64,000 nucleotides of DNA from Kappaphycus alvarezii (taxonomy: Eukaryota; Rhodophyta; Florideophyceae; Gigartinales; Solieriaceae). Every line of letters starts with the position of its first letter. Position 1 is the stretch's first letter. The notes beneath the pieces are model-generated. The model saw only the letters and a program-made list of their open reading frames with translations. It did no database searches and was not told the DNA's origin. This document shows positions 14,601 to 59,264 of the stretch, piece after piece. The DNA is taken from the NCBI GenBank assembly GCA_002205965.3, contig NADL03000473.1:62001-126000 (forward strand), read 5' to 3'. A program made the position numbers and the translations under genes.

Positions 14601-15453
14601 GGAATTAGGGGTCTCAAAAGTACTGCAAACGTCCCACAATTGTTTTCTACAGCAGTGACGATTGAATTTGCGGAGACGAAATAAAACGTAATTTTCATTC
14701 TTATAATAGAATGAAACTTGATTTTCGGCGCTGTCGATAATCGGCTGATGGGCTCCACACCATTCCTTCCGCAGGATTGCATCATATCTCTTCAGGGGAC
14801 TTATGGGAAAGTTCCAATGTCTGATATGTCCAATAAGATTTTGTTAATATCTTTATTAAATGTTGGAACTTCCTTGACTTGCTTCAAGCGAGGCAGTTTG
14901 TCTCGGGCGGTTTTCTCTTTGTTTATCGTCTCTAAACGATTGAGGAGAGCAGCCTCAAATTCCTTCCATGTTTGAATTTCCTTCCCCCCTGCACTCTTCG
15001 AATAGACCATCCACCAATTATGAGCATTTCCCGAGAGATGGCTCAGTGCAATGTTAATGGTAGCTTGCCCATCTCCTTCACTCAGGAAATTCTCCATCTG
15101 CACACACCAGCTTCCGATGGACCCTTTACTGCAGAAATATCTAGGTTTATTTTTATTAGGGGCGTCCTTGTTTTGATTTTGACTACTGGAGGTACCAGTA
15201 TTGATCCTGACAAGAGATTGCTCATTCTCGAGGGCTTCTAACTTCTGAGAAACATTATTGAGCTGATTCTGCTGCGCGGAGATCTGATTATGGGCATCCG
15301 ACAGCTGACGTTGAAGTTCGCTTGCAGCCTGTGCGAGAGCCTCTACCGTAATTCCAGAAGTTTCCATGTTCTTTTCCTATTAGTCGATAGAATAAGAAAG
15401 AAGTTTAATGTATTCAGTATCTACTGGAAACTGCGCACGTCCTAACTATACGG

Positions 15454-38154: not shown

Positions 38155-38774
38155 ATGTATTCTCCTGTCGTCATCCTCCTAGTGCTCTCCTCGCATCAGT
38201 TTCTGTGGCATCCACATGCCCTTGTATCTGCCGTGCGGGTAGCAATGCCATGGTGGCTACTGAGAATGAATGCCGTCGCTCTATTTTCGTGGACAGTTGC
38301 GCAGTCGACAGTTGCACCAGGCGCACTGGCGCGTCAGGTTTCTTCTGCTGTGACCCATCTCCTAGTCCCACTCCGTCTGGTACCCCTTCCATCTCGGTCT
38401 CCCCTTCTCCAAGTCCTTCCACCTCCCCGCCTCCGTTCTGTCCTTGCGTCTGCCGTACCGGGTTCTTCCAAGTGACAAACGCTGAGGCTGAATGTACAAC
38501 CTTTGGATGCGGTGTTATTTCCTGTATGAGAGGCAGGACCATAGGAACTCAGTGCTGTAACGTGGCCACTCCGTCGCCATCGCCAACTCCCAGTACTTCT
38601 ATCCTCCCGTGTCCGTGTGTCTGTCGCACTGGTATGAACCAGTTCGCATCTGCAGAGGCAGAGTGCGAACTCCCAGGGACGCCATCGAGGTGCATGGTTG
38701 GTGTTTGTATTCGAGTGAACGGCGCCTTTGGAACCTCTTGCTGTGACCATAACTCCCATGGTGCCCTTGCGTAG
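38155..38774 (+). CDS. Secreted three-module 8-cysteine protein (paralogue A)
   Basis: ATG 38155 in the context AACCAACCATG opens a hydrophobic signal-like segment (MYSPVVILLVLSS). The mature part lies in another frame from about 38205 to the stop at 38774, so the gene changes frame within a TTT run near 38201. The mature protein has three modules. Each reads C-P-C-x-C-R-x-G-x10-E-C, then C, x4, C, x9-10, C-C (8 Cys), at about residues 5-49, 79-118 and 136-180 of that frame. Linkers are SPSPTPS-type Ser/Pro runs like those of O-glycosylated extracellular proteins. An intron cannot fit between signal and first module. The gene could be a recent pseudogene or carry a one-base sequence error. 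I know no named family with this pattern; export and disulfide bonding are inferred, and the molecular role is unknown. Confidence 0.75.
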
Positions 38775-39360
38775 GATCACGTGATTGAGAGTACCCGCTT
38801 CGATCTGCTCGAAACTTCTTTTAAGATCAAGCTGGCCCATAGCAAACCTTCGTGAACGAAATTAGAATTCCTGCCTTTTCTTCTCTTATCGACCCTGAAA
38901 TAGGTGATAAAATCTGCTGATGCATTGGTATATCCATAGTTGAACTCATCTCGCTTCCAGTTTATAGCGTCAACCGTATTCAAGAAAGCCATCTTGAGTA
39001 CCCCAACTGCGATTGAAATTTCCAGTTACTGAGAATGGAGGAGCAACACAAAACTCGAAGAAACATACTGAATCCTGCAATGCCTCGACGAAATCACCCC
39101 ACTTTTTTGTTGCGTATTCAATTCTGACACATTCTGACAGTTTAACAGTAGCCTAAGATCTATATTCCATCTGCCAAAGTCACGGTTTTGTCATGAATAT
39201 TACAAACAATCTCTAGATAGAACTTCATGGCGTCATACCCTCCATAATGCAGCATCTAAGCACGATTCAGAGATCAATCTTAAAAGAAACGATGGGTTCC
39301 TATTAAGAAATTATGAATGAAAGGGGGAAACTCGACAGGATCACTGGGGAAAAAAGGGGT
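38775..39360. other. Intergenic, no supported gene
   Basis: A minus-strand ORF at 38992-38777 has no recognisable domain. Nothing else is visible. Confidence 0.45.
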
Positions 39361-39363
39361 GTC

Positions 39364-39442
39364 TTTATTGAGATATATGGATTGGCTGGGACTCAATTGA
39401 AGTTGCAAATCTGCATGTCATACTAAATACATGTACGAAAGC
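39364..39442 (+). repeat. Dispersed repeat shared with 45598-45668
   Basis: TTATTGAGATATATGGATTG, then GCAAATCTGCATGTCATACT, TAAATACATGTA, recurs with few changes at 45598-45668. In both places it lies next to LINE tails. It may be part of the LINE 3' UTR or of its insertion sites. Confidence 0.6.
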
Positions 39443-39559
39443 ATCACCTTTAATGATCAATACTCAGGAGACCGCTAGCGCCATCCAGCGCAAGGCTTGG
39501 GGACTACATACATGTACCGATGGTCGAAGCAACGTACAAATCATTGTTGTCGAATGCTA

Positions 39560-39898
39560 GCACCAGCAACAGTCTACCAGAAAGTCGATAGGATGCCAGC
39601 CAGCAGACAAGCAGCGTTAGAAGTTACTGCCAACGCCGAGTGTCATTGTAGAAGTATGCCTCGAACCTTAGAAAACCGTTCCATTGCGCGGCTGGCGACG
39701 GTTCTTGCAAGCTCCGTGACCACTGAAAAGGCCTCTAGATGCCATCCGCCAAGAGTAGATATTTGAGAAGGAACCAGCCTGCTTCTCTCAGGTAATTCCG
39801 CAAGAAAACCTTGGTACTTTCGCCGCTTTTCCGCGCTCGCTGCATTGAGACTGGTCATCGGGTTAAAAGTCCGGACTCTGGAATGGGAGGGAGCGAGA
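39560..39898 (-). mobile_element. LINE C-terminal domain and tail
   Basis: Minus-strand blocks are VRTFNPMTSLNAASAEKRRKY, split as VRTFNPMTSLNAAS and AEKRRKY, then RLVPSQISTLGGWHLEAF, LARTVASRAMERFSKVR and, after a frame change, HSALAVTSNAACLLAG. This is the most complete copy of the C-terminal module: a K-x(2-3)-K-Y helix, a strand with STLGGWH, a helical region and the SNAAC tail. The layout is consistent with a PD-(D/E)XK-like endonuclease end, but only by resemblance. It abuts the gypsy LTR at 39899. Confidence 0.7.
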
Positions 39899-40125
39899 GG
39901 TTAGTTGGCAGACAATCGGCGTAAGAGAGATATCCGACGCCCACTATCCAAAAACGGAGGTGTTGCGAGCGACAAAAGTGCTATGGTAAGGTAGTTTTGG
40001 GAACAAAATGTGCTATATACGGACGAAGTACCTAATGCAACCGACTTTGTCCGAAAGTGGCACACTGTACCTTTGTCTTGGGAACAACAGATCTGCTTCT
40101 GTGTACGTTGCAAGGAAAATGCAAT
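39899..40125 (-). repeat. Gypsy-2 LTR fragment (downstream copy)
   Basis: Direct repeat of 44646-44869. It includes GATATCCGACGCCCACTATC, GGAGGTGTTGCGAGCGACAA and CCGACTTTGTCCGAAAGTGG. It ends abruptly at the junction with copia sequence. Confidence 0.9.
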
Positions 40126-40560
40126 GAACTTCTGCAGGTAATTCGACCTTTATATGGATTAACAGATAGTGGCGACTACTGGTGCGAGACCAACACAAAA
40201 TTTCACACTGATAAGCTACGTATGCAGCAAAGCACAGGTGATTTTGCCCTGATCTTCAAGCGAGTGTTCAATCGTCTCGTAGCGCTATCTGGATCTCATG
40301 TCAACGATATTGTACAAGCCGGAACTGCTGATCAGAAGAATCGCTTAAAAGATATCTTTGCAAAGGAATTTGATGTTAAGCTATCTGAATCACAAAAATT
40401 CACTTACTTAGGCATGGATTGCAATGTTTGTGACAAGGATGAACGTCGGCTTTACCAAACACAGTACATCAAAAATCTACGTTTCTTACCTAGAGATGCC
40501 TCCTTTACAGCATTTAGATCAGTTCGAGGCAAGCTCGCATGGGTGGTCGACTTGTACTTT
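40126..40560 (+). mobile_element. Copia reverse transcriptase fragment
   Basis: Plus-strand blocks RPLYGLTDSGDYW, LVALSGSHVNDI, AGTADQKNRLKDIFAKEFDV and KFTYLGMDCNVCDKDERRLY correspond to the C-terminal half of copia RT. It is wedged between the gypsy-2 LTR fragment and the gypsy-2 integrase, on the opposite strand, and is related to the 31.6-35.1 kb copia type. It is a fossil fragment only. Confidence 0.8.
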
Positions 40561-43500
40561 CGTATGGGCGTGAACTTTTGGCAACCATCACAACTCTTCA
40601 CAAATTCGAAGGCGTCCTTATGCAGGCCAGGCCACCAAAATCTGTCCGTGATGAACTGCTTCGTCGTATTCAAGTCCCAGTGACCGGTTCCATCGTGGAG
40701 GGTCCTTAGAGTCTTACTGCGCTCCTCTAGCGGTGGCACTAGTCGGAGGCCTGATTTGGTCCGTCGGAACAATCCCCCTTCCCAAAATAAAAATGCCTTT
40801 TGGTTCTTCCGAACCTAATCCTTATTTTTTGGGTCTACTTTTCTTATCTCCAGACCGTTAGGAAATTTAGTTAGGGCCGTAAGTTCGGCCTCATTGCTGT
40901 CTAGCTCTGTCTTATCTATTTCGATCGTACCTAAGACATCTTCATCGAGGCTATTTTCCGGTTTCCGGTCTTCTCCCAAACGAGAAAGAAAGTCGGCAGG
41001 TTGATTCTGACGTCCTGGTCGATATGTTACCTCAAACCTGTGCTTCGCGAAAAGAACAAGCCACCTGGCCAACCGGTGGTGCACGTCCTTCTTTTGAAAT
41101 GCTGTCTTGAGCGCCTGGTGGTCAGTCACTAAAGTAAAACTTTTCGAGCGACAAAAGGTATACCCTAAATTTCTTCAATGCGAAAACTACCGCAAGCGCC
41201 TCCTCTTCGCACACAAAATATCTTCTCTCCGCTTCGTTGAAAGTTCTACTTGCAAACTGGACTGGGTGTAATCTACCTCTTTCATCCTTTTCGGACAAAA
41301 CGGCCCCAACAGCATGGTCTGAAGCATCAGTTTCTACTATAAAAGAAACCTTGAAATCAGGATAAATGAGAACCGGATGGGCGCAAAGTTTTCCTTTAAG
41401 ATCCTCAAAGGCCTTTTGCATGTCTTGGTTCCACCTGAATTTTTCACTTTTTTGACGTTCCAGAATGAAGAGGGGCCTCTATTTTAATAAAATTCTTAAT
41501 GAACCTCCTGTAGTATGAGGCAAGGCCAAAGAAACTTCTTATACATGTATTGGAAGTTGGCAGGGGTGCCATACTGATTTTCGAGACCTTGTTCGGGTCT
41601 ACTTTTATCCCCACTCGGTCTACTATATGGCCCAGTAGTTTTACAGAAGTCTGTACGATGAGACATTTGCTCAGCTTAATCTTCAGACTGTAATTAGATA
41701 TCCCTCTAACCACTTCTTTGATATGAGTCACGTGTTCCTCCAGCGTTTTTCAAAAGGTCACCACATCGTCTATGTACACCCTTGTAAAGGGCGGTCCCTT
41801 CAAGACGTCCTTCATCATTATTTGGAAGGTTGCCGGTGCGTTCATGAGACCAGAAGGCATCACTTCGAACCTGAAAGCTCTCATTTTACACGTGAAGGTC
41901 GTCATTTCTCTGCATTTTCCTCCAAAAGAATTTGCCAGTAGCCAGTATAAAGGTCGATCGTTGCAAAATATTTCCCATCTTTAACGTCCTCGAGAATTTC
42001 CTTCATGTTTGGAATTGGGAACCGATCAGGTACTATTTTCCCGTTCAACAACCTGTAATCGGCGCAGAATCTGGGTCTTTTATCCTTCTTGGTCGCGATG
42101 ACAACTGGGAAAGACCATGAAAAGGAACTGGGGGCTATTATACCATTTCTTAGCATCTCGTTGACGTTCTCCTCTGTCATCTGATCCCACTTTGGTGGTT
42201 GGCTACGCGGTTTATGGTATATTGGTTTCAGGTCTTCCAGCTCAAACGTATGCTTCACAGGCACATCTGCTTGCCGCAAGTCTGAAACCTCACACGAGAT
42301 TACCCCTGATGATACGAGTGTCTCAGAAAATTGCTTCGCTGCTGGAGAAGGGAAGTGACGAACCGCTTTTTCGATTTCTCCCACTCCTTTTTCTATTTCT
42401 GCTGGGTTTTGCTCGCAGAGTCCGCCTCTCCCTGCTCCTCTGAGGCTGATATCTTCTTTTAAGCACCCATTTCTTATATTTTCCCTTTTTTTTTAAACTC
42501 TTATTGCGTTCAAAGCGCGACGCACTCCGGTTTTGTGTCGTCCCCGTAGCCCCTGTCGTCATCCGTTTCAAATCCAGAGTCTGAACTGTCCCAAGCGAAG
42601 TTCTGGATACCTTCCTCCGAGTCATTCAAGTGGTCATTTTGATCCTCACTCCCCGAATCCTCACTTCCATAAATGGAGGTGAAATCTTCGCTGCTCGTTC
42701 CATTTAAATTTCGCAAACCACCACTCCTATCGTAGTCGAGGTGCATCCGAACTTCCGTTCCATCGACCCTAATTGACACGCTTTGATTGCCTATATCGAT
42801 GCAAGTTTCCAATTCTTCCATCGTTGGGCAGCCAATGATTAAATCAAATGGGAGGTCAGGCATGACTAAGAAATTTAAATTGACTTTTAGGTCCGCGAGG
42901 AACACTGCGACCTGTTCAACCGCGCCCATACATTCAGAGACGGTATCATCAGCGACCGTTATCTTCTTCATTGTAGGAATAGGGTTAAGGCCAAGATGAA
43001 TCTCCAAACTCTCCGAGATTAAATTAGGAACATCCCCTGAATCGAATAAAGCCTGGGTTCAGGTTCCTAGAACCTTGATCGGTACCAGTTTGAGACGCCT
43101 CTGAGTGGTGGAGGCTAAATTGAGCATAGGCCTCTTGCTGTCGGTCTTAATAATTTTCTTCAGTTTTTTCCGGGCGTCATCCGCATATCCTCTTAGTAGT
43201 TGTCCAAACGTCATCCCGGTTGGAGCCGCCGCCAGCTCGGCCACTAAGCTGTATTTCTTTACGTAACCTAGTACATCCCTTGAGATACCCTTACTTTTTC
43301 CTTGTTTTCTCGTTTTTCTGGATTTTACGGCCTCCATCCCTGGAATAATTGGATGAAACCTCTTTGTAAGTGGTGCTAGAGGGGCGGGATATGCTCCAAA
43401 ATATTTTCCCCCAATCTTTGTTTCTTTGCCAAAACGTTGCCTTCCGCATCCCTTTTTGTCGTGTTTACCTGGCTATGTTCTTCGGCAATCGAGACGTTTC

Positions 43501-43666
43501 CGGCATTTCCCATGTTTTGCTACGATTTTTTTTAAGTAGTTACAGCTCCGGACATGATTCACTTCGTGCCCTTTGGATAATTGCCCGAGGTCCATCTGTA
43601 GACCAGCAGTTGCTCTCATGGTGACCATATCGACCACAGCGTCATCATCGAGTATCCCTGTGTGGA

Positions 43667-43818
43667 TTACCTGGGCATCTATTAGCGAAGTGTCCCGGCT
43701 TATGACAGTAAGAGAAAACTTCGGGTGCCCTAGTACTCCCAGTTACCTGGGCATCTATTAGCGAAGTGTCCCGGCTTATGACAGTAAGAGAAAACTTCGG
43801 GTGCCCTAGTACTCCCAG
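43667..43818. repeat. 76-bp perfect tandem duplication
   Basis: Two adjacent copies (43667-43742 and 43743-43818) beginning TTACCTGGGCATCTATTAGC and ending AGTACTCCCAGT. It lies within the gag end of gypsy-2. The copies look identical, so the duplication is recent or an assembly artefact. Confidence 0.9.
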
Positions 43819-44645
43819 TTTGGTTTTTTTTTATGGTTAGGGTCAAGCTCTCCAACTGCGAAGTTATCATTTCCAAACGATTATCAAAGCGAGTCTCCAT
43901 CCTTTGCTCCATATCTTTGACATCGCCTCGATCAGCTTCTAGGGCTGTCGAGCTTGTCGCTGGCCTCGGATAGTTCTTTTTCGGATTGACGAAGACCCCA
44001 TGCATAGGTACGCCTTTCTCCATTGACCCCAGTGCTTGAGAGGTCTAAGAATTTTACACAAACTGAACTATGGTACCCTTTAACTCGCTAAAAGCTAGCG
44101 GACCTTTTATAAGGAGGAAATCCTAAAGGCGTTTATCCTCCATAGCTGCTTTGCGCCACATCCCATACTTCGCTTGATCATTAAAACCTGCTTTGTAGTA
44201 TAAGCCACAAATAGAAATTACCGAACTTAGCAAATCGCGAAAGTCTAGACGGGCTTCGATAGCAATACGAATCATCTCATCAGGCTCTACCTCCTTAGCA
44301 TACTCATTAATAAGCCACCTGCAGACCTCATCGAAGTTACGACCATTGTCGTTGAGCGACCCCCCCTCGATAAACTTTGCCTTTTATTTTGCCTTTGCAT
44401 CACCGGAAAGGTAGGCAGAAAGGCTGGTAGCCTTTTCCTCATTGGTCTTTTCACGCATTACAACGTTGACGAATGCGTAAAGAAACTCTTCAACATCTTC
44501 CTTTTTGATGCCTCAAAACATCAAGCAGGCAGTGTTATTATTCATTTTATCCACTAATTTACCTCCAAATATAGACTAAAGACCCCTTATACGGCAAATT
44601 AACCAGCTACTACCGGTGCAACAGCCCTCCAAAAGAGTACCAAAA

Positions 44646-45250
44646 TGTTAGCAGAAAATCGGCGTAAGAGAGATATCCGACGCCCACTATCCAAAAACGG
44701 AGGTGTTGCGAGCGACAAAAGTGCTATGGTAAGGTAGTTTCGGGAACAAAATGTGCTATATACGGACGAAGTACCTAGTGCAACCGACTTTGTCCGAAAG
44801 TGGCAGACTGTACCTTCGTCTTGCGAACAACAGATCTGCTTCCGTGTACGTTGCAAGGCAAATTCAATGGCTTGAAATGGAAGAGGGCTCGGTGGATCCC
44901 CAACAATCCTAAGGTGGCAGGCTCTTCCATCTAGTTTCGAGGCTTGAGAGCCGTTTATAAATTTTGGGCCCGAGGATGACTACCAACTTCGTTACTACTG
45001 GATCTCTTTTGAAGTTGTCTGTCAACTTCCTTTACACTCTGTGTTGTGAGCGACTTAGTTTGGTGAGCGTCCCCCTAGGGCTTTCTGCCCATCCCAAATA
45101 CTTCTATCATTTCATGCAAACAGCCCCTTATATAGAGTTTTCAACCCTCACAATTGGTAGCACCTATACAATCCCTATGTACCTTATCGGCACCGCCACA
45201 GTACGGTGCAAAGCATCCCTCCAAAATTAATTGAAAATAAAATTGTAATT
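44646..45250 (-). repeat. Gypsy-2 LTR (upstream copy) with primer-site region
   Basis: Begins (plus-strand reading) TGTTAG at 44646. The element side carries AGAGTACCAAAA, i.e. TTTTGGTACTCTTTTGGAGG after CTAACA, the expected place and TGG start of a tRNA primer site. Family features are the GAGGTGTTGCGAGCGACAAA block, a perfect hairpin GAAGTTGTCTGTCAACTTC near 45010, and a TATA block CTATATAAGG. The high boundary is not sharp. Confidence 0.75.
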
Positions 45251-45389
45251 ACAGTGACAGCGCAGCCAGCGCAGCATGCCCAAATTTTCATTTACAACAA
45301 GGTTCATTTGTATTTTAAAAGATATGGGGCTTATGAACTGTCGACTTGTAAGGGAAAAAGGATTTTGTGCTTTTATTATTTGGAAAGGG

Positions 45390-46050
45390 GTGGAAATTGG
45401 GGTGCTTTACTGATTCGAGATGTTGGACGGCTATTTTCCGAGACTAAGGGGGCTGGTCTGTGTATTGGATAGTCTGAAGAGGAGGCAGAGTCAGGCCGGA
45501 CGATTTCACAAGGCTTATGTGAGGCCAGCGATAAGGCGTGTTGCGTTGGGCGAAACCGTCGCCGCAGCTTATTTGGAAAGAGGAAACGGGGGGGGGTTAT
45601 TGAGATGTATGGATTGGTTGGAACCCATTTCGAATTGTAAATTTGTATGTCATATTAAATAAATGTAGCGATGGTCGAAGTAATGTTATTTCAGGAAAAG
45701 GGAGAAAGTTTGGGTTTTTTTTAATGTATGAAAGATGTGCTCGGTTGTGTCCACGCGACCGGGAGTGCGTCGTGCATATATGCATATTTTCGGAAAATAC
45801 GGCGACAGGAGCAGATGTCGCTCCACTCTCCCGCCAAGACGTGGTCATGGAGGACTTCGGACGGGTGTTATTCCTGCTTATGCAAAGACACGCTGCGGCG
45901 ACAGTTTCGTCCAACGCAGCATTCCTTACGGCTGGCCTCACTCCAGCCCTGTGAAATCGTCCCGCCTGACTCTGCCTCTTCTTCAGACTATCCAATACAC
46001 AGACCAGCCCCCTTAGTCTCGGAAAATAGCCGTCCCACATCTCTAATCAG
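45390..46050. repeat. Inverted pair of LINE tails
   Basis: 45390-45560 (minus) and 45880-46050 (plus) are inverted copies of the same LINE tail and UTR. Both share GCGGCGAC(A/G)GTTTCG, CGGCCTGACTCTGCCTC/CGCCTGACTCTGCCTC, CAGACTATCCAATACACAGA and CCCCCTTAGTCTCGG. The plus copy reads GRVLFLLMQRHAA, TVSSNAAFLTAGLTPAL-stop. The spacer (45600-45700) carries the repeat also found at 39364-39442. Two opposite insertions, or one folded-back copy, would both explain it. Confidence 0.75.
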
Positions 46051-46575
46051 TAATGCACCTAAAATCCCCCACTGTACCACCAAGCGGCGAAGAATATGCA
46101 CCCCGACTTGTGTTGTTATAAAAACGGTTCTTTCTGTAGGAAAGCGGTCCCTACCACAAACCTCCGTTTTTGTCATCCTTAACCTCCGATTTTTCAAAAG
46201 AACTCTTCTCAAACCTTTTCTTTACGAGCAAAATCATGAAAAAAAATCCCCCATGAATCCAAATTCATTGTAAATCTCCATTTCCATTTCATTTCTGAGG
46301 ATTTTGGTCCTCCTTTTTCAAAAAGAAATCTTTTGACTCGTAATCCGCCTTGTCTTCCAAATTCAGTTCCAGTATTTTATCAAGCAGACTTTTAGTTATT
46401 GCTCTGATTGCATGCAAGTTCAAACCTGCGACATTTCCTGACATTTTTTATTTTGTCCAATGCCCTGAAACTTTTCGAAGGCGTCCCCCTATTTAAAGTT
46501 CGATATCGACGTCGTTGTGGCAAAACTCCCGCCATCAACTATCCCATATACCCACCATTTTTTTACCCTCAAAAT
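46051..46575 (+). mobile_element. Upstream half of an LTR L-like unit, split by the copia insertion
   Basis: Contains CCCTATTTAAAG (46488-46497), matching the box 107-114 bp ahead of the ORFs in the two complete family L LTRs. The sequence then runs ACCCTCAAAAT to the copia boundary, and the ATG of the related ORF follows on the other side at 51295. Upstream sequence is pyrimidine-rich like the family L LTR but too diverged to align confidently by eye. Confidence 0.45.
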
Positions 46576-49500
46576 TTTTACCGTACAAAGGTAATACTAA
46601 ATCAACATGCGGTTATACTCTATATGCTGTAATAAAATACAGCACTATGCATTTATATTTTAATGCGTTAGAAGAGTTGTTCTTTGGATCAAACTGTGTT
46701 AGGATACTTTTATCTATCTTGTATATAATGATCTGCGATTGATAAGACCTTGGTGATAAAGAGGAAAAACCTACGGACGATTTCCATAATTACTATGCAA
46801 CAGGTTATGGGCCCAGAAACAATTTAACGATTTTTGACTCAATTTATGTTTGTCAAACATCGAACTACGTTCAAGTGTCATTTACTACGACAATTTTCCT
46901 TGTTCTCTCGAAAAGTAAGTTCGAAGAATGTCTGATGACAAAGTTGGCATTACGAGTTTGGGTATGGAACCGCTAAGTGACAATAACTACTACCTATGGG
47001 CCGACTAAGTGGAAATATTGCTCCGAGGAAAAGGACTATGGAAGTACGCTGTGGATTCTTCAAACGATTCAACGTCCGCTTACTTAGGCCAGGGTCCCGA
47101 AATACAAAGAAGGAAAGGGATTAGGCTTTTTTATATATAATTATGTCCATTAGTTCGTCATGTAAGGCATCTGTGCTAAGATTTCGAGATCCAAAATTAA
47201 TTTGGGAGACTCTTCGTAAGACCTATCAAATGGTGTCGGAAGCCTCTATCGATGCTAAGCTATCAGCACTACAAGGTGCATCGATGGATTCGTCTGAGTC
47301 AATTATTGAATATGCCAATAGAATTGAGACCCTAATGAATAAACTGAGAGCAATTGACCACAGTTTATCCCTAATTGAGAAGAAAAGACCACAGTTTCGT
47401 GGAGTTACATCGGGTTTTTCTGTCACAGCTCAAGGGATTAGAGTGACCCGAAAGACGCACGAGCAGGCAGTGGCAGAACTAATAGTGGCTGATTCTGCAA
47501 TGTGCAAAATTCCATGTAATCAAGCCCTAACGACAAGGCCGAAAGGTCCAGAACGGGGTCCTGTTTTATGTTCACACTGCGGAAGACGTGGTCAAATTGC
47601 AGATAAGTGCTATCATAATCCGACCGGGTCTTAGAAACGATGGTCTAAAAAGTCTTCAAGCAACAATCAATATAGGGGCTCAAAACATGGAAAGAAAGCA
47701 GAGGCCAAAGTAGCAATTCTTACTTTATTTGATTCTACTGTCGGTAATACTACGAACTCAATGGTAATGCGGGAGGATATGGATAAATAATGTAAATGGA
47801 CGATGGACGCAGGGTGCATTTCTTATATCACCAATAATATGTCTAATTTTACATCCTTCAAAAGAAAGATAGGATTCATACAATTGGGTAATAAGGAAAC
47901 ACTAAGGACAAAAAGAGTGGGTACTGTTAACGTATCAGCTACCATAGGAAGTCGTCCCGTGCAAATTGTTTTCAATGATGTTACATATGCTCCTCAGATT
48001 TTGTATAACCTACTCTCAGTATCAAAAATACGTAAGAAGGGATTAAAAATTACTCTCGAAAGTGATGAGGAAAGTTAAATCGAAGGCGTGCGCACTGTAC
48101 AGGACAAGTCATCAAATGAGCCAAAGTTGGTTGCTAAGGAGAACAGTAATGGACTCTATGAAGCGATAATATCTGTTGACAAGAAGGCCGACTTTGAAGC
48201 CCATGTAGTCAAAGGAGTTTCTGAGTACCAAGAAATATGGAATAGAAGACTTGGTCATGCTCGCGATAATAATATCGAGCGATCAATTCCACTGTCAAAC
48301 GGAATTGATTTTGAAAAATGGCCTTGTTTAGAAGGTGTATGTGATGCATGTAAGGTCGCTAAATCCGTACGGCATCCTTGAAAATCTGTTCCATATTTTC
48401 AAGAAGTATCAAATTCAGTATATCGAGTTCACTGAGACGTGGTTAGACTTGTCCGAGTAAGATTGTTATCAAACTTCCAATATTTTGTCACTATAATTGA
48501 TGATTACAGCTCATTTTATATGGTAAGATTTATGGAAAGGAAGAACAAAGTGGCTCACTTACTGAAAGGAAGAATTATCGAATTGGGCTATCTTTTCAAC
48601 AGTAGGGTGAAATCAATAACAGTGCTGAACCGCAAGGAATTCAAGTAGTTCCGTTCAGACGGTGGGGATGAATACATCTGTACTGTTCTAAAATCGTGGT
48701 TACAAAATCGGGGAATAATACATGAGCTATCGACACTCTACTCCGCGGAGTCTAATGGTCGTGCCGAACTTTTAAATCGCACTCTACTTGATATGGCTCG
48801 AACTATGATAATGAACGTATTTGAGAAACCGTTTATATACGTACAGTAGTGTAGGTTATGCCACCCCCTATGAAATATTTTATGGACATCCGCCGGGCCT
48901 TCGAGAACTTAAGGTGTTTGGTTCTAGGGCCTCTTTACATATTCTCAAATCGAAACGAGAAGGCAAGTTTTTTCCCCGAGCTGAAGAAGGAGTTTTGGTC
49001 GGATTCGAACGAGGGAACGCCTACAGAATAATGAACCTTAAAACTGGAATGGTCAAAATATCTAAAGATGTTGAATTTAATGAGATTTTAATAGTCTAGA
49101 TGCCTGTCGACTGCGGGTCCAATAGGACTGGTAGCGTTTCGGTATTACGTATTACACTGGAAGATGTCGATCTTAAATTTGAAGCTGAATTACCTACTTC
49201 TCAAGAAGCGTCAAGTGATTTCAACAAGGGGTCAAATGGTCATCTTATTCAAGAGGATGATACTGTACAAAATGATTTTGGAATAACTTCAGATGAAGAA
49301 AATCAAGTTCAGATCTCAGAGCTAGATAGAACTATTTCCGAGGATATGCTAGAGCACGTTCCTATAATTAGGAATCAAACCGCCCTAAGTTTTGTGTACC
49401 GCCGTCTAGATTAGGATTTGAAGGTGCCTGTCTCGTGACAGATTCATTCCTCGACGCACATTCAGAAAGCTTACCGTTCACTTATAAAGAAACAACAAGT

Positions 49501-51291
49501 GGTCATAATGTAAGCAATAGATAAATGCAATGAAGGAGGAAATATCTCTTCTGAATGAACATTGGACTTGGAAATTGGTGAAGTTACCGAAAGACCGCAA
49601 ATTTGTTCGAACTAGATGGGATTTCGACCTTAAAACAAATTCTGGATGTCAGCTAGAAAGATATCGTGCACATCTAGTTGCTATGGGATTTACGCAAAAA
49701 CAAGGTATTGATTACTTTGAAGTATTTTCGCCCGTTGTGCGATACTCATCCTTCCGGTTACTAATAGCCATCTCAACCAAAAATGGATTGAAACTCACTA
49801 TCTTCGATGTTAAAAAGGCATTTCTAAATGCAGAACTTGCCGAAGAAATTTACGTTGCCCATACAGAAGCTTTCGTTAAGATCGGACAGGACGATCATCT
49901 CTATTTACTACACAAGGCACTGTACGGCTTAAACCAAGCATCAAGAGCTTGGCTTGAATTATTCAATTCATTTTTATTGGAATTAGGTTTCCATCCATTA
50001 CTTGGAGATGTTAGTATATAATATCGCAAAAGGGGTGGCTCGTTTATACTTCTTCTTCTATACTTTGATGATATCATAATATCTGGTAACGATGACTCTG
50101 AAATTTCAAATACGGTCAAGTTGATTAGTCAAATATTTACTGTCCGCACCGTAGACAAGAGTTCTATGTTTTTGGGGATCTCTATTGAAACTGTCCCAGG
50201 GTACATAAAACTACACCATGAACTACTTATTGATCGAATGTTACGATACTTCAGTATGTCAGATTGTATTGTATCAGCAGTCCCACTCTCTCCCGGAACT
50301 GATTTAAGCATATAAGGACATGCTTGTGAGGGGGAGAGCCGAAACGAAGTGCAGAAGACTCCGTTTCATCAATCGGTTGGGTGTCTTCTACATCTTTCTA
50401 ACACGAATCGCCCGGATATTGCCTACGCTAAGGGCTTTTTATCTCGTTTTATGCAAAAACCTGACGATAAACTATGAAAGGCAGCTAAACAAGTCCTTCG
50501 CTACCTGAAATGTTCTAAGAATCTTGAAATTGTGTACTACTAGAATATGGAACAACCTGAAGAAAATTACAGCATAGTTGGATACAATGACTCAGACTGG
50601 GCGCAAGAGAAACCCGAGCGCAAATCTATAGGTAGATATTTATTTAAGGTGTCTGGTGGCCTTATCAGCTGGTATAGCAAGAAGGAGAGCTGCGTTTCAC
50701 AGAGTTCTGTTGAAGCAGAATGTATTTATCTATCCTTTGCCATAAAAGAAGTTCTTTGGCTTGGGAAATTTTATCCTATTCTAAAGGCTACTGGAATATC
50801 TACAAAGATAATAATTAAGAAAGACAGCCAAGGATGTATCAAGCTTACAGAGGATGGAGCCGTCAATGACAGGACTAAACATATTGATGCCAGATATCAG
50901 ATAATTATTGAAAATGTAAGGAAAGGTGTAACCGAACTGAAGTACTTCCGTAGCTCAGAAATGCTCGCGGATATTTTGACAAAAGCGTTACCAAGAGCGA
51001 AGTTTGAAAACCTGGTTATGGAGATGGGAATGAAGTAATGAAGGTATAACCTTTGAGGGGCATTTTAACAGTACAAGGGTAATACTAAATGAACGTGCGG
51101 TTGTACTCTATGTGCTGTAACAAAATACAGCACTATGCATTTTATATTTTAATGCGTTCGCTGAGTTTGTCTTTGGATCAGACTTTGTTAGGACACTCTT
51201 ATCAATCTTGTATATAATGGTATGCAGTAGCTAAGACCTTGGTGATAAAGAGTAACAACCTACGGACGATTACAATAACCACTGTGCAACA
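46576..51291 (+). mobile_element. Ty1/copia retrotransposon with both LTRs and half-tRNA primer site
   Basis: A 4.7-kb element with LTRs of about 228 bp (46576-46802 and 51063-51291), roughly 89% alike by eye, ending GCAACA. Parts in order: gag from 46931 (LGMEPLSDNNYYLW start; zinc knuckle CSHCGRRGQIADKCYH near 47570); protease (DAGCISYITNN, 47808); integrase (WNRRLGHARDN and ACKVAKSVRHP, then IIDDYSSFY, 48240-48950); RT (about 49530-50300, with RYRAHLVAMGFTQKQGIDY and LYGLNQASRAW); and RNase H (50547-51038, GYNDSDWAQEKPERKSIGRY through KHIDARYQIIIENV). The layout looks whole but it is broken, with roughly eight to ten interruptions. Flanks AAAAT and AACAT suggest a decayed 5-bp duplication. 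Confidence 0.9.
46803..46816 (+). promoter_or_regulatory. Primer-binding site complementary to the initiator tRNA-Met anticodon arm
   Basis: GGTTATGGGCCCAG starts right after the LTR end (CA at 46801-46802). Its complement, CTGGGCCCATAACC, is the anticodon stem-loop of eukaryotic initiator tRNA-Met. Drosophila copia is known to use such an internal, cleaved half-tRNA primer. Confidence 0.85.
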
Positions 51292-51294
51292 AAC

Positions 51295-51513
51295 ATGACC
51301 ACCCTCTGCACCGTCCCTCATCATCTCCAAGCCATCCCGAGGCCGCCGTCCCTCGACGTTTTAGCCTCGATGGCCAATGGACCAACCCACTATGATGATT
51401 ATTGTAGAAGAATGAACCGGGGACGCGTTCGGGAGGGGTCCGCCGGCACTGCCTCGAAAAGGCAGGAGAGGCAGAGGAGAAGGTATTGGATGAGGAGGCA
51501 GAAGAATAGGTAG
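51295..51513 (+). CDS. Small basic ORF related to the LTR-borne ORFs
   Basis: Starts ATGACC (MTTLCTVPHHLQAIPRP) and contains NGPTHYDDYCRRMNRGRVRE. This aligns with YGPTDADDYIRRQTKKQIIE at 35.6 kb and FGPTDRNDHLRRQTKNKVIE at 56.7 kb. The C-terminus is Arg/Gln-rich. The copia element ends three bases before the ATG; its promoter-like CTATTTAAA lies beyond the copia at 46489. Unknown function; probably part of a diverged mobile element. Confidence 0.45.
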   Translation: MTTLCTVPHHLQAIPRPPSLDVLASMANGPTHYDDYCRRMNRGRVREGSAGTASKRQERQRRRYWMRRQKNR

Positions 51514-53398
51514 AAGAGGGGGTGTCTGGGGCTGAGGTGGGAAGATGCTTGTACTGAATGAAAAATACATGCTGAACTTATACGCATAATCTTTATGAGC
51601 TTGTAGTGATGTTGCACTTCTGCTTGCTTTACATTATTGATTTTCATGTAGGAGTTTGTGCAACTTTCACACAAAGATATGAACAGGGCATTTAAGGTTC
51701 CAAAACAAGTAAGGATGTAGAACGGTTGCATAAAGATGCAGTAAGGGTCAGTTCTGTGTATTGGAGAAGAAGCCAGACAGAAAACCTTGCAGAAATGGCA
51801 TAAGGCCAGCAAAAATAAATGTGTGTGTGACAGAACTGCTACCGCAGCTTTTCTTTGCAAATAAAAGCTGGGGTGATGGTTGGAAACTTGAAAGCTGCAA
51901 GTTAGCAAAATTCAACGCTTTTGTATGTCATTTTACTGATTCAAAAACATAGCCGTACAGACAGAGTGTGGGATGTTTAGCGCACAGAATGTAACCGATG
52001 GTTGAACTGCTGGTTGATGGCCAATGTCAATATACCCTGTAGGCCATGAAGAATTTTAGCAGTCCTATGGCCAATATCGTCTAGATGGTCAATTTACTGT
52101 TCGATTTTTTCGTCGAAAATGTCTTGTTCGGACTCAGACGGAGCTAGAGATGATGTTGGAGTCTTTTGAAGATTAAAAGAGTGAGCATTGCGAGACTTTG
52201 AAGGAGGATTGATTCTGCTTATTGACCTCATCGAAATACCGGGAGATGTGTATTGCGCGGGTATATGGCTTGGAGATATGTCATTACTGCAATATGAGCG
52301 CAAAGCCGGGGAGTGTAGATTAACCATACCTTTCAATCTTACGAATTGAGAGAAAGGGAGGCCTCCAACCATGGTGAGATTCTCTGGGAGAGTGGCGAAT
52401 GTACTTGAGGAGGCTCAATATTGTTCCAGAATTCGTATGTAAATCAGGGCACAGTTGTTTTCAGGAATCGATCTATTCTTTAATAGGGGCTTCGAGCTCT
52501 GCTCGAAAATAAGGGCAAAGGAAGCGATTCATTACTCAAAGTATCTTTTCGCTAGGTAAAAGTCGAGGGACCGTTATATTAGTACCTCAAAGGTTTCGGT
52601 AAATGAACCCATGCATGATATCATGGTAAGATCCGTTCTGCCAGCCTTGACTGACGCTATTGCAGATTTTAGTGATTGTGAAACCTGGGAATATAGTAAA
52701 AGTACTGCCGAATATTCTCTAGCTCGCTTACGTTGATGTCAGTGCAATATATTTGAAGAATATCTGACTCTTTGAAACAGCTTAACATCACCCGCCTGAT
52801 CACTAATGACTCTGTAGCATATTTTTTCTTTGAGATAAAGCTGAATCTATCACCACACAAAATCATGACGATTCTCACCTGAGCCGGCGCCCTGGTTTGA
52901 TCAGCAGTGTCGGTGTCCATGACTTAGCTAGAATTATGCGTATGTGAAGATATCAAGAGGTAAAATGCTTCAAAAAAGGTATTTGATGGGTATTGCGGAA
53001 GAAAAGGTGTAAATGATCGCTCAAAATTCGAGATCATATACGAAGAAACTTCAAAGACTCCACAAATAGATGCTATGGAAAATAAATTCTTTGAAGAAAG
53101 TTGGAAGGTCGAGTTATGGGCCGCAGAAAATTGGAGAGCACACCAAGCGTTATGAAGATAGAAAAGAAAGTGCGAATCATCAAGTTTAACCCTTTCCAGT
53201 CGATTGCGGAGTCTTTGTAATAGATATAAAAGCTATGAAAAAGGCTATGAAGTGACCAGCATTTTAATAAGAGTACTCTATCCCTTGCACCATCACTGGA
53301 GAGGCAATAGCATTACTGGCTCTGTTAAAGCTAAAAAAAGAGATCGAGAAGGGCCATTTCCGCACAATGTAACCCCACCTCTCCACAAGAGTACCAAA
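51514..53398. other. Mostly unassigned; small relic of the gypsy-1 LTR
   Basis: 51965-52040 (GCGCACAGAATGTAACCGATGG, in part, then TTGAACTGCTGGTTGATGG) resembles the start of the gypsy LTR at 11145. A minus-strand ORF at 52372-52094 (92 codons, Ser-rich, acidic end) has no recognised domain. The rest shows nothing. Confidence 0.4.
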
Positions 53399-53900
53399 TG
53401 TTAGAGATAAATCTCCATGGGATGATATTATCAGAGCCAATTATCCAAAGACGGAGGCATTGCAATCGACAAGAGTGCTACTAAAATACGGTTTGGGAAC
53501 GAAAACACGTAAATAAAGACAGGAGTACAAGGGGCTACAAGTAAGTAAACAAGGGGCAGGGATATAACTTACGCTCAGGTTCTGGCGATAAAAATTGATT
53601 TAAGAGGTTGATTTCAACTTCTAGACTACTTAGGTCTGCACTTGAAATTGTATCCCCTGTCTTGCCAGCAACATGACCAACTCTCGGAGCAGTTCTCTGC
53701 AATGAACCCTCAAATGTTGTCTGAATTGTCATTGCTGTAGCTTTTGAAGGTCAAATCAAGAGAATTGGTGATATGGATACTATTTCCTAAGGTGTATTGT
53801 CCTGTGCTTCGCTGCTTCCTTCCGACAAAAAGGGTGGCTCTGAATTTGGCAACCCAGCAGTGTATCTGAATCATCTTAAGTGATACCTGCAAGAATAAAT
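53399..53900 (-). mobile_element. LTR relic with primer-site remnant, gypsy-2 type
   Basis: Begins TGTTAG (plus reading) directly after AGAGTACCAAA, the same junction as at 44646, so it is the downstream end of a minus-oriented LTR followed by a primer site. The blocks CCAAAGACGGAGGCATTGCA, TCGACAAGAGTGCTAC and GGTTGATTTCAACTTC follow in the family order. Internal sequence is lost. Confidence 0.65.
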
Positions 53901-54399
53901 ACTGATAAGAAAAAAATCAAAGGAAGCTAAAATTTCAAAAGGGAAGAGTAAAAGAAGATGAGGGCAGAGTTCCGCCAAAAGACAGATGTTTTCATTAAGT
54001 TCAGAAATGATGTGTTTGTTTGGAAATATTTAAGAGTATGAAACAAAGCACTCAGACGTGCGGAACTCCCTGAAAAAACTACTCAAGCAGACGTCGTCTG
54101 CTTAACTGGTTGGCTTGCATCATGATATGCACTAAACTTGCACCCGAAAAAAAATATAGAAGGGAAACAACTTCGGATACAGTATCGGAATTCGCAAGAT
54201 ATTTTTACAATATTTGAAAATGATAGATATTTTTAATATGGGTGAGAGTGGTAAATTCACAGGTTGATTTTTTAATTTTACGACACGCTGTCATTAATGG
54301 ATGTCAGTACATGTCCAGATTCTGGATGATACTAAGAGTGAATCTGAGAGGCCTATATAATGCTCGCATCAATTCCCACTCCTGGCCGATGGGTGGCGG

Positions 54400-54847
54400 G
54401 CATGGGTCTGGCACTTCGATATTTACCTTGAATAAATATCTTCTATTAGTGTCTCTCGTCCATACGATCCCTTTATTGCATTTCATGGTACTGACTATGT
54501 TTCTTTGAGACACTAGGGTTATCCGAAAAGTCTATATAAGCTGAGTAAACTGCTTCCTCTTGGAGATTTCAAGGAAGTTGGCAGACAACTTCAAGTCAAG
54601 TCCCAAGCAGTTAGGAAAATAGGAGCCAGCTTCAGACCCAAGGAAAGTGTTTCTTACGCTAGTAGCAGATCATAAGAAGTATACCCTGCCCCTTTTATAC
54701 CCGCTTGTAGCCTTCTCAACTTTCGTCCTTACCCACCTCTTTCTGTTCGCTCGACTATCCCATGGCAGCACTTTTGTCGCTTGCAACACCTCCTTCTTGG
54801 GGTAGTTGGTTCTATTTATCTCATCCCACGACAATTTACAGCTATCA
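54400..54847 (+). mobile_element. Partial LTR, family L
   Basis: The 3' 400-450 bp of the LTR: the TATA block GTCTATATAAGCTGAGTAAA (54529), a perfect hairpin GAAGTTGGCAGACAACTTC (54572), GCAGCACTTTTGTCGCTTGC (54765), and the end CAATTTACAGCTATCA (54847). It is one of the better-preserved copies, with no adjoining internal region. Confidence 0.78.
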
Positions 54848-55420
54848 AGTCCCTTAAAGACAGAATAAAAAACGAGTAACGAAATCCCGCAACTCAAGCG
54901 TGGCGGAGGAATGCCGGCGGCTAGAAGCGAAAGAAGCGAGGAGGCGGAAAACTTTAGAACCAATATCCTCTAACGCACCATAGGTATAGATGCTGAAGGG
55001 CACCAGTAAGATATCATTGGGGTCACAGTAGTCGCCGTACCGCGAGAAATTTGTGTGCTCGGTGAGAGAGGTAGCAGCGCCGGGAGACGAGGCGCTGTGC
55101 GGAAGGCGCTAGTCGAAGTTAGAGTGGGTCACTGTAAAATCCAATACTATATCCTTGGCGCCCAGACCGTAGACAGAAATGACAGGAATTACTCATCTGC
55201 GCAAATATAAGTAGTGGTATATTTCTACTAGTTGTACTGAACGCTATGGCGCATAAGCTTGCAGAGGGTATTCAGAAATAAACTACGTACATAGAAGAAC
55301 ATGAAAAAGGCGGTTGAGGATTCTGATAGCATCCGATACCGTAAAAACATTTTTGGGTGCTCAAAATTAGACCCTATTTACTATTTTTGAATTCTTTTCT
55401 TCGTCTTCACTTTCAATTTA

Positions 55421-55843
55421 TTGGCGAAAGATTTCTGGAAAGCTGCGCGACATCCAGTCGTCGAGCTGCGGAAGGGCTCCACCGCACCAGACCTGATATT
55501 AGCGCAACGGGACGCGCTAGCGGAACAGACTTCCTCGATTCACCTTCGTCAACCCGTAGCGCCCTCGAACGGGAGAGTACGGAATTTCAACCAGCTTACC
55601 TCGCTCAACGCAGCAAGAACGTCGAAACACAGAAGATACGAGTCCTTCATCGCATCTTCCTCCAGAAGTAGGCTTGTCCCTGTCCCCATCTCTACCCTCG
55701 GAAGATGGCACCCGGGCGCTCACGCGTTGCTAACCGACGTCGCACTCACCATAGCTACGAGGGCAAGGGAGACCTACGCGAAGCTAAAACAAGTATTTGC
55801 AACAACTTCATGCCGCAGCGGCAGCGATGTCCAATGCGGCGTG
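55421..55843 (+). mobile_element. LINE C-terminal domain, interrupted by a solo LTR
   Basis: Plus-strand frame: APDLILAQRDALAEQ, VRNFNQLTSLNAARTSKHRR, RLVPVPISTLGRWHPGAH, LTIATRARETYAKLKQ, then in a shifted frame HAAAAAMSNAAC. PDLIL followed by E and K-x-x-x-Y would fit a PD-(D/E)XK-like nuclease fold. The LTR 55844-57309 begins inside the SNAAC tail. The tail sequence FLLAGFQPVF-stop is found just beyond it at 57310-57345, showing that the LINE was there first. Confidence 0.7.
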
Positions 55844-57309
55844 TGATAGGGGTAAATCGTCGTGAGAAGAGATACTTACAACCAAACCCCAAGAAAGAGG
55901 TGTTGCAAGTGACAAAAGTGCTACTGTGGTATAGTTGAAGGAACAAAAAAGGTTGGGTAAAGACGACAGTTGAGAGGGCTACAAGCAAGTATGGAAGGGG
56001 CAGGGTCTACCACTGATGCTCTGGGACCAGAGTAGGAAAACTTTTTCTTGGGTCTGAAGTTGACTCTCAACTTCTTACTACTCGGGACTTGACTTGAATT
56101 TTCTGCCAACTTGCTTGAACTCTCCATGAGGGAGCAGTTTACTCAGCTTATATAGACTTTTGGCTACCCCTAAAGTCCGAACAAAACTACAGAAGATACC
56201 AGGAAATGCATAAAAATACTTTGCGTAGATGATTTACTCTAAAAAAAGATACTTAAGAAACGAACAAGCGATCTGGTCCTTTTATTTCCCATTCTTTAGA
56301 TCAGACCCAAATAACTTGTCCAAAATATTCATGCTGCCCAAGTTAACTAAACAAATATCCGTGAGCGGCTCATAACTCTCTATTTCCTCCTGTGAGATAC
56401 CGAAACCACTAAAGATGCCCTCATCCGGTTCCAGCGTCGGGACCTCTTGGTCCATACTGTCCAGCCCCGGCCCCACCATTCCAAAACTTTCCACGTCTCC
56501 CTCCCCCTCATCCCCCTCGTCCTCATCCTCATCCTCCTCGTCATCCTCCTCGTCATCCTCTTAGTCAATCTCATTCTCGTAGACCAATTCCAGGACTGCC
56601 CACTCCTCGAAGGTCTCCCCAGCTCCCTCCTCGACTTACAACTCCTGCCCCTCACCAACCTCCTCCGCCTCATCCCCGACGAACAAACGACGCACGATTT
56701 CGATCACCTTGTTCTTAGTCTGTCGGCGTAGATGGTCATTACGGTCAGTAGGTCCGAAAGGGAGTAGGGGAATGAAGTTAAGGGGGCGGGGGTGGCGATT
56801 TTTGGAAATGACTTTGAAGGGGCATAGGTTGTCCATTTTGGTGGGCTTTGGGGAGTGGTAGGCAATTGAGGGTGTCTTGAATTGGTAGGTGGAGAGGGGT
56901 GGTGAGTAAAATGATCGGGGACGTTTGAAACTTGGAATAAAGGGGTTTAAATAGACTCCCTAGGACGCATTTTATAGATTTGGAATAGGTAAAATAAACC
57001 TGCAAGGGAATTTGTAGTAGTGAATTTGCGCCCTTTTTCTCAACTTGAATTTTTAGATGGGTAGAGGTAAGCGAAAAGGGAAAATGACTTGATTGGGGAT
57101 CGATTTAGAGGGGTAGATACAGTATAAAACTATCTAGATAAAATGGAAGTGAATTTAGAGAGGGCCGCGGTAAGGATTAGCAAGGGTCAGGGAGGGCGGG
57201 GAAGGACGAGAACTACAAGCAATTTTGGACAAGGGGAGGTAGTATAGAAATTAAAAGTCGGTAGATGACTGTGACAAAAAAATCCGTTCCGGTCCGCGCG
57301 CTTCTAACA
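55844..57309 (-). mobile_element. Complete solo LTR, family L, with small ORF
   Basis: A 1466-bp minus-oriented repeat, TGTTAG...CTATCA in its own sense, collinear with 35072-36589. In its sense it contains CTATTTAAA (around 56950), the small ORF starting at 56836, a GAGGA-rich stretch (about 56570-56500), the TATA block CTATATAAGCTGAGTAAAC (around 56150), a perfect hairpin GAAGTTGAGAGTCAACTTC (around 56070), and GTAGCACTTTTGTCACTTGC (around 55915). It sits inside a LINE tail. GTG abuts both ends; a proper 5-bp duplication is not clear. Confidence 0.85.
56636..56836 (-). CDS. Small ORF inside the solo LTR
   Basis: Starts MDNLCPFKVISKNRHPRPL, with FGPTDRNDHLRRQTKNKVIE and VRRLF, and lies about 110 bp behind the CTATTTAAA box. 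It is the counterpart of the ORF at 35527. It belongs to a fossil repeat and its function is unknown. Confidence 0.55.
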   Translation of the reverse strand: MDNLCPFKVISKNRHPRPLNFIPLLPFGPTDRNDHLRRQTKNKVIEIVRRLFVGDEAEEVGEGQEL

Positions 57310-58600
57310 GTGTTCCTGTTGGCTGGCTTCCAGCCAGTTTTCTAGCGTTTTGACGGCTTCCAGCCATTCCTTTACATTGTTTGTGGAAATCTTTTACAAG
57401 AAACGAAAGCCTCTAAAGCAAGTGTCAGGAGGAAGACCAATAATTACTATTCAGGCAAGCGGCGGGTATTGAAAAGCGGGTATATAAGTCCACATCAAGA
57501 CATCCCTCAGAGAATAGCTGGCATCATTTTTCTGGGATTAAAAACACCCCAAATTCCCCCCCCTCTTAGTCCTCTGTGAATTTTATTGCAATACACTATA
57601 TTATTTTTCGTATGGTGATCCGCAACCTGTTAACGCTTTCTTCCGGCATACTTTAAAACCAATGCACTGGAAGTTGAGTTTTGGTCATTTTTTTTCAAAT
57701 ACGCTCCAAAGTAGCTCTTCAGGGAAGTGCAGTGCTTATAAATAGGGAGTGTAAGAAGGAAGAACCGCTCTAACTGATAGATGAGTCATACAAGTGTATG
57801 TGATTATCAGATTAAGTGTAGAGGTGTACAAGCAATGCATCATTGTATATTTACTGTGTGAGTTGTACGTGATCTACTGAGTCGGATGACATCAACATTA
57901 GTTGTTACGAATTGTATATAAGCTAATACTAGACTAAGAACCAACAACAAAAAAAAAAAAGGGAAGTTATAATCTAATACTAACCACATGCCGATTACCT
58001 CGTAAAGAATTTTTTAAAAAGAAATCCGGATATTAAACTAGGACATCATGAAAGGCATAAATTTCCATGTGTAGCGGTTTCCCCTAGTCATCTCTCGCAG
58101 TGCGGCGAAGATTTTCGCAAATTGAGAAGAAAATCAAGTCGATTCGGGAAGGAAGCAGTCATAGAGATCTACGAACCTGGTAGATACGACAACTGCAGAG
58201 CTCAAGCGGCTCAGATCGTAGGGGGTGAGCAGCGAGCAAGTGGCAAAAAGTGGCAAAGAGTAAGCCATTTCCAGGAAATACCGGAAAATCTTGCTCAGGG
58301 GATACTAAAACTGTTCACCACCTCGATGTGTTTGAGGAACAAGGTAGGAATTCAGGACACCGCAACCGGGCATGTAGATTATGCATAACACATATGTTGC
58401 TTTCCTGACTGGCTCGGCTGTTTCTGTTTTCCCTCAACTTGATGGAAAGCATTCATAGATGCACAAACTGTACAGTACCCCTTCTTCATTTACAGAAACA
58501 GGCTGTAAATAGCATGAAACATCAAATAAATTACCTGCTGGCACCGCATAAGACCAACCTTGAACCATCGACTCAATATCATAAAAGCCATCCCCCGACG
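57310..58600. other. LINE tail, then gene-free DNA with an A12 tract
   Basis: 57310-57345 is the end of the LINE tail, with a GGCTGG/CCAGCC hairpin repeated in part 30 bp on. No further ORF is supported; 58122-58388 lacks any known motif and does not start convincingly. A12 at 57949-57960 could mark the LINE poly(A) end. Confidence 0.45.
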
Positions 58601-58650
58601 GCCCACACTACAACCCACCACCAGCCGCCGCATCCCACATAACCCCTCCC

Positions 58651-59199
58651 CTAAACCTCACAACAAGCAGTACCAAGCGCACCATTTGGCCTAACACACT
58701 CCACGACCGCACACCCACGCCCCCGCACCTTCCTACACTCCCTCCTCGCGGATCCAAACTGCCGAACCCCCGTCCGACACGTACAAGGACACCTCCCTCC
58801 CCCACTTCCTCCAACCTCCGGCTGCACACTAGGCGAAATGCAACACCAAGTACCACCAGATCTTCCCCTATTACACCGACCCACCGCACACTGTGCAACT
58901 GTGCATTCGGCATCGGCGCTGTCTTGTTGGAAGAAACCTGTGCGACACACGCATGGACAAGGGAGGGATGAAGGTGTTGGAAAGGGGGTGGCGTTGCAGC
59001 AGAAGAAGCCGCTTTGGTTTACAGGGCGGTTGCAGGGGAGGGTGGTGCAGTGGGGGGTGAAGATTTGGCGTCGACATTCGTTGTTAGTGGATTCAAGGGA
59101 TACAGGGCCTACGCGGCAGATGCAGGGGCATTGGATGGAGTGGGTGAGGGTGATGAGGGAGAGGGAGAGGGAGAGGAGGAGGGGGAGAGGGGAAGACAT
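58651..59199 (-). CDS. Secreted three-module 8-cysteine protein (paralogue B)
   Basis: 182 residues from ATG 59199. I choose this start because a TATATAAA box lies only about 58 bp upstream and would overlap a longer ORF reading from 59304, and because MSSPLPLLLSLSLSLITLTHS is a clean signal peptide. Three modules follow at about residues 23-67, 79-118 and 136-179, each C-P-C-x-C-R-x-G-x10-E-C-x(4-8)-C-x4-C-x(9-10)-C-C. The linkers are Pro/Thr/Ser- and Gly-rich. Module-by-module spacing equals that of paralogue A: 13-8-4-10 for module 1, 13-4-4-9 for module 2 and 13-7/8-4-10 for module 3. The gene is intact, intronless and more GC-rich than its surroundings. The likely site of action is outside the cell or in the wall; the role is unknown. 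Confidence 0.85.
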   Translation of the reverse strand: MSSPLPLLLSLSLSLITLTHSIQCPCICRVGPVSLESTNNECRRQIFTPHCTTLPCNRPVNQSGFFCCNATPFPTPSSLPCPCVCRTGFFQQDSADAECTVAQCAVGRCNRGRSGGTWCCISPSVQPEVGGSGGGRCPCTCRTGVRQFGSARRECRKVRGRGCAVVECVRPNGALGTACCEV

Positions 59200-59256: not shown

Positions 59257-59264
59257 TTTATATA
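59257..59264 (-). promoter_or_regulatory. TATA box of paralogue B
   Basis: TATATAAA in the gene's sense, about 58 bp before the ATG, followed by a short C/A-rich leader. It helps decide the start codon. Confidence 0.65.

Follow-up and report, generated by a model that had tools for sequence, protein, structure and literature searches.

The red alga Kappaphycus alvarezii carries a family of genes for proteins built from a recurrent eight-cysteine module, the CPCxCR module, two of which, genes A and B, lie in one stretch of 64,000 nucleotides (contig NADL03000473.1, positions 62,001 to 126,000; hereafter the window). The module itself, the gene family, the constraint on its cysteines and the domains that accompany it are established here. 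As for function, the explanation that we prefer, albeit with slightly less than even confidence, is that, judging from their sequences, the members of the family would be multivalent secreted proteins of red algae that bind the cell wall or the cell surface. Little has been described, to our knowledge, of the non-enzyme proteins in red-algal cell walls. A secreted family without a named relative, together with the clue of a lectin fusion, would hence offer concrete genes for wall assembly, defence and recognition in a farmed carrageenan seaweed, and the CPCxCR module could be proposed as a new Pfam domain.

Two genes with three modules each

A sequence-only reading of the window had described A and B as two paralogous genes, each encoding a signal peptide and three eight-cysteine modules of fixed spacing (Table 1). 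All six modules were recovered at A and B with the spacings that it gave. The gene structure applies to B, which is open in one frame, but not to A as it stands in this assembly, where the gene measures 620 bases, which is no multiple of 3, and the signal-peptide-like start and all three modules lie in different frames. The copy of A on contig C84, which is 93% identical across the 620 bases, forms a single open frame of 213 codons. Hydrophobic starts, judged by eye from the translations, precede the first module in the family proteins, and the linkers of A and B are in general rich in Ser and Pro as described, with the exception of the second linker of B, which is composed of Gly, Ser, Pro, Val and Glu.

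Table 1. Positions of genes A and B, their modules and a candidate promoter element in the window
Feature	Positions	Strand	Description
Gene A	38155..38774	+	Signal-peptide-like start and three eight-cysteine modules in different frames (translation)
A module 1	38217..38351	+	Spacing 13-8-4-10
A module 2	38439..38558	+	Spacing 13-4-4-9
A module 3	38610..38744	+	Spacing 13-8-4-10
Gene B	58651..59199	-	Single open frame of 182 amino acids; signal-peptide-like start and three eight-cysteine modules
B module 1	58996..59130	-	Spacing 13-8-4-10
B module 2	58840..58959	-	Spacing 13-4-4-9
B module 3	58660..58791	-	Spacing 13-7-4-10
TATATAAA, candidate TATA box	59257..59264	-	About 60 bases 5' of the B ATG; consensus match only

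The module can be written as C-P-C-x-C-R ... C ... C-x4-C ... CC within 40-48 residues, an expression that fits all six modules of the window. Searched in the six-frame translation of the window, this expression, which was written after the modules had been seen, gave 6 matches compared with 0 in 100 dinucleotide shuffles. Across the genome the shorter motif CPCxCRxG gave 52 matches versus 14 with a reversed control, and 42 of the 52 fall in family loci, some of which were found through the motif itself; inspection of the other ten (on C80, C105, C455, C484, C508, C585, C653, C655, C678 and C827) revealed no eight-cysteine module. A chance pattern can be ruled out on the basis of the two comparisons with shuffled and reversed controls.

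Among 41 distinct modules from the whole family, in which the cysteines are invariant by construction of the search expression, Pro2 is present in all 41, Arg6 in 38 and a late Gly in 39, while segments between the cysteines, such as the stretches after C4 and C6, are variable. The net charge of a module ranges from 0 to +9, with only +1, +1 and 0 for the modules of A. Arginine occurs 271 times compared with 259 expected from base composition, and lysine 4 times compared with 22. Since the arginine count is near composition, binding to sulfated galactan by charge is not specially supported, and strong positive charge as the mechanism is weakened as a candidate.

Divergence of A and B

When the modules of A and B are paired in the order 1-2-3, the alignment scores 431, whereas the best alternative pairing reaches 369. 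Synonymous change between the two genes is saturated (pS 0.86) and non-synonymous change is not (pN 0.32). All 24 cysteines are kept, compared with 51 identical residues among the remaining 104 aligned positions (nominal P 4e-7), although 11 of the 24 cysteine codons differ silently. From this module-by-module match, the saturated synonymous change and the retention of every cysteine we infer that the triplication of the module is older than the duplication that gave rise to A and B, in agreement with the sequence-only reading, whose claim of constraint is likewise borne out for the cysteines of this pair. The outcome that it had named as refuting, a dN/dS near 1 with cysteines no better conserved than the rest, is not what the comparison of A with B gave.

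A gene family across the genome

The idea of a lone pair of paralogues proved to be an underestimate. In the genome searched (336.0 Mb in 884 contigs) the family numbers at least 21 gene copies, spread over 19 contigs as ten near-identical locus pairs and B; the copies outside the window are named here after their contigs. A protein search of the genome with B returned 23 matches at E ≤ 0.001 and no partner locus for B itself, and a search with the C805 protein returned 31 matches at E ≤ 1. The module expression identifies 45 intact modules, 41 of them distinct, in 20 of the 21 copies, and none in C62. Nine copies have all their modules in a single open frame (C84, B, C848, C791, C805, C60, C575, C511 and one gene on C519), whereas the other twelve, A included, are frame-broken.

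The ten locus pairs are duplicated, homeologous or haplotype segments: in each of them the similarity runs past the gene into the flanks, with the largest aligned piece 86-96% identical. Near-identical pairs with similar flanks are what would be expected for a duplicated, hybrid or haplotype-split genome. Identity is higher in the module region than in the flanks in eight pairs, equal in C511/C719 and lower in C547/C453. One-base gaps fall within runs of at least three bases in 13 of 18 cases in the module regions versus 44 of 99 in the flanks. As a control, an HSP70 search of the same genome gave 29 matches at 15 places, four of which were full length in a single frame and five of which (C1, C27, C556, C679 and C748) were broken up into pieces that overlap or adjoin and differ in frame. 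Frame breaks therefore occur commonly in this assembly, a conserved family being no exception, and the assembly itself may cause them.

Pooled over nine recent pairs, counting only intact shared modules, of which four pairs contribute one each, pS was 0.099 and pN 0.031 (P 7.5e-9); the C519/C62 pair was omitted because C62 has no intact module. Two pairs stand out, namely A/C84, with a dN/dS of 1.04 in the modules (14 non-synonymous and 4 synonymous changes), and C60/C575, with 1.37, and both may be relaxed or fast-evolving. The excess of synonymous change expected of a real family is seen between A and B but not in the recent A/C84 comparison, which leaves present-day selection on A without support.

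Search for known relatives and predicted fold

The sequence-only reading knew of no named domain with this pattern, and Pfam supports this view: B, the module part of A and 24 module sequences, including a truncated one, matched 0 families at E ≤ 10. A sequence search of the PDB with B gave one match that is not credible (a superoxide dismutase, E 0.9), and a search with a module profile gave 0 matches at E ≤ 10. In scans with single proteins, which reach close relatives only, the C519a protein matched 10 stretches of a genome contig collection and B matched 8 of a viral contig collection, none of which was confirmed, and the C519a protein found no match among phages. Among the titles listed from the literature searched, in which subscription papers and preprints are few, none describes a CPCxCR module.

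From an alignment of the six window modules, AlphaFold2 predicted a weakly supported strand-helix-strand-strand order, the first strand being two residues long, with a mean pLDDT of 83 in one of five models and 50-55 in the other four. The predicted helix spans residues 12-22 and contains one cysteine. The model of full-length B is poor (pLDDT 48.6) but has helix-strand-strand in each module. Foldseek against the PDB returned 314 matches at E ≤ 10, the best at 1.4 and none at E ≤ 0.001.

In CS-alpha-beta defensins a CxxxC on the helix pairs with a CxC on the last strand, a signature that the spacing of the module and its single helical cysteine do not match. Plant nsLTPs have the eight-cysteine order C-C-CC-CxC-C-C, whereas the module reads CxCxC-C-C-C-CC. 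More generally, the module has small size and eight cysteines in common with known small secreted proteins but differs from their motifs in having CxCxC first and CC last.

Partner domains in relatives

Several family members outside the window combine the modules with other domains. The C511 gene encodes 319 amino acids from its ATG, with a signal-peptide-like start, two modules and then a jacalin-type lectin domain (PF01419; 26.2 bits at a cut-off of 22, E 1.2e-5, profile positions 6-136 of 136), and C719 is its frame-broken twin. The best PDB sequence match of the lectin part is the jacalin lectin horcolin, which at E 0.49 is not significant. Jacalin-related lectins have a red-algal example in griffithsin. 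The likeness to them is confined to the C511 relative; the Pfam scan of B and of the module part of A detected no PF01419 domain. A genome-wide PF01419 search returned nothing, with the known C511 domain missed as well and the control genomes silent. In the available text of PMC11766507, Gracilariaceae are the sole group with jacalin-type lectins in the annotated genomes of red algae that were surveyed, and cysteine modules are not reported with its lectins.

On C684 (1107-3212 of the stretch read) and C550 the module gene extends into a long tail, which consists of acidic repeats of 33 residues. In C805, C630, C60 and C575 a different cysteine-rich domain, ending in VCC, lies N-terminal to the modules. 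It recalls the cysteine order C..GxC..C..C..CC of clip domains, which are cysteine-rich, protease-associated domains of arthropods. The likeness is restricted to these four proteins, the clip-like domain being absent from A and B, and Pfam gave no clip match at E ≤ 10 and nothing better than E 3 for the C805 and C575 proteins. The VCC-ending domain was also observed at C575:685516-685806, where the sequence read holds no module.

Possible function

In the explanation that we prefer, the signal peptide would direct the secretion of the proteins, which would probably reach the carrageenan-rich cell wall or the cell surface. A module, about 45 residues long, probably forms a compact domain with four disulfides, and the modules would be strung on flexible, mostly Ser/Pro-rich linkers, which are perhaps glycosylated. 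The repeated modules could then serve as binding heads, the number of which would give avidity for a wall polysaccharide or glycoprotein. The hydrophobic starts, the cysteines kept despite change in the DNA, the mostly Ser/Pro-rich linkers, the C511 lectin, the acidic tails and the OAA-type lectin arrays found elsewhere in the genome all argue for a secreted binding protein. Against a role in wall binding we count that the lectin link consists of one gene and its broken twin, that arginine is near composition, that dN/dS is 1.04 and 1.37 in two pairs and that 12 of the 21 copies are broken. One could further propose, with confidence somewhat below even, that CPCxCR represents an extracellular red-algal domain new to description, which has a disulfide-bonded strand-helix-strand-strand fold of its own and is used in a mosaic toolkit for the assembly of the carrageenan wall or for surface recognition; the partners in this mosaic would be the jacalin-type lectin, the acidic repeats and the other cysteine-rich domain, and the toolkit, known here from one genome, would be lineage-specific.

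It is also conceivable, although from our point of view fairly unlikely, that the modules serve a secreted defence as cationic antimicrobial units of a defensin-like kind, either released singly or displayed in rows. Their charge of up to +9, carried by common arginine with lysine nearly absent, a dN/dS of at least 1 in two recent pairs and the predicted order of strands and helix, which recalls cysteine-stabilised alpha-beta peptides, would fit such a role. The modules of A are, however, near neutral, the combination of CxxxC and CxC known from defensins is absent from the spacing, the linkers are unlike processing sites, and no small disulfide-rich antimicrobial fold appeared near the top of the Foldseek matches, none of which reached E ≤ 0.001. 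By analogy, strings of small eight-cysteine modules whose inter-cysteine segments vary are also reminiscent of multi-headed protease inhibitors, in which one variable loop per module would meet a protease as in Kazal and other inhibitor strings, but since neither Pfam at E ≤ 10 nor the PDB sequences yielded an inhibitor family, we regard this role as decidedly unlikely.

A role in gamete or cell-cell recognition during red-algal reproduction appears very unlikely to us. According to the available text of PMC4413206, lectin-carbohydrate pairs serve gamete binding in red algae, and rhodobindin, the gamete-binding lectin of Aglaothamnion, is, like the proteins described here, a red-algal protein of tandem repeats; one of our relatives (C511) carries a lectin domain, and in some pairs the proteins evolve fast. 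The repeat motif of rhodobindin, going by its description, is nevertheless unlike the CPCxCR module, and the word cysteine is absent from the text available of that paper (PMC4413206). Finally, A, and possibly a large part of the family with it, could be decaying, dead copies kept by chance in transposon-rich DNA, as the broken frame of A, the 12 broken copies among 21 and the A/C84 ratio of 1.04 might suggest. We hold this to be most improbable, given that nine copies are intact in one frame, that the pooled recent pairs have a strong synonymous excess, that identity is higher in coding than in flanking DNA in eight of ten pairs, and that HSP70 is likewise split at 5 of 15 places, so that the assembly may break frames.

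Genomic context

A and B had been described as the only host-like genes that could be supported in the window, a view with which a Pfam scan of 30 further open reading frames is consistent without proving it. The window holds 57 open reading frames of at least 100 amino acids, of which seven overlap A or B, 30 were scanned and the remaining 20 lay outside the scan. Matches at E ≤ 0.01 were obtained for 11 of the 30, with a transposon family on top in each and 8 of the 11 above the Pfam cut-off. Broken transposons lie at 3428-4912, 11830-15367, 20971-21801, 40057-42384 and 47143-50021, and the transposon parts in the window comprise endonuclease/reverse transcriptase, Gypsy-type gag, integrase with SH3, pogo-type DDE, and Copia-type gag with reverse transcriptase.

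Elsewhere in the genome, 36 OAA-type lectin sugar-binding domains (PF17882) stand in rows at C786:258558-404561 and C625:479872-619450. These rows form an expanded lectin cluster, in which some copies have internal stops. The OAA-type domain is known from Kappaphycus, Eucheuma and Solieria, as given in the available text of PMC11766507. Together with phycobilisome-domain genes, the rows indicate a carrageenan-making red alga of the Kappaphycus/Eucheuma group (Solieriaceae). Three matches to the phycobilisome domain, two of them near-copies, were found on the apparently nuclear contigs C74, C669 and C837.
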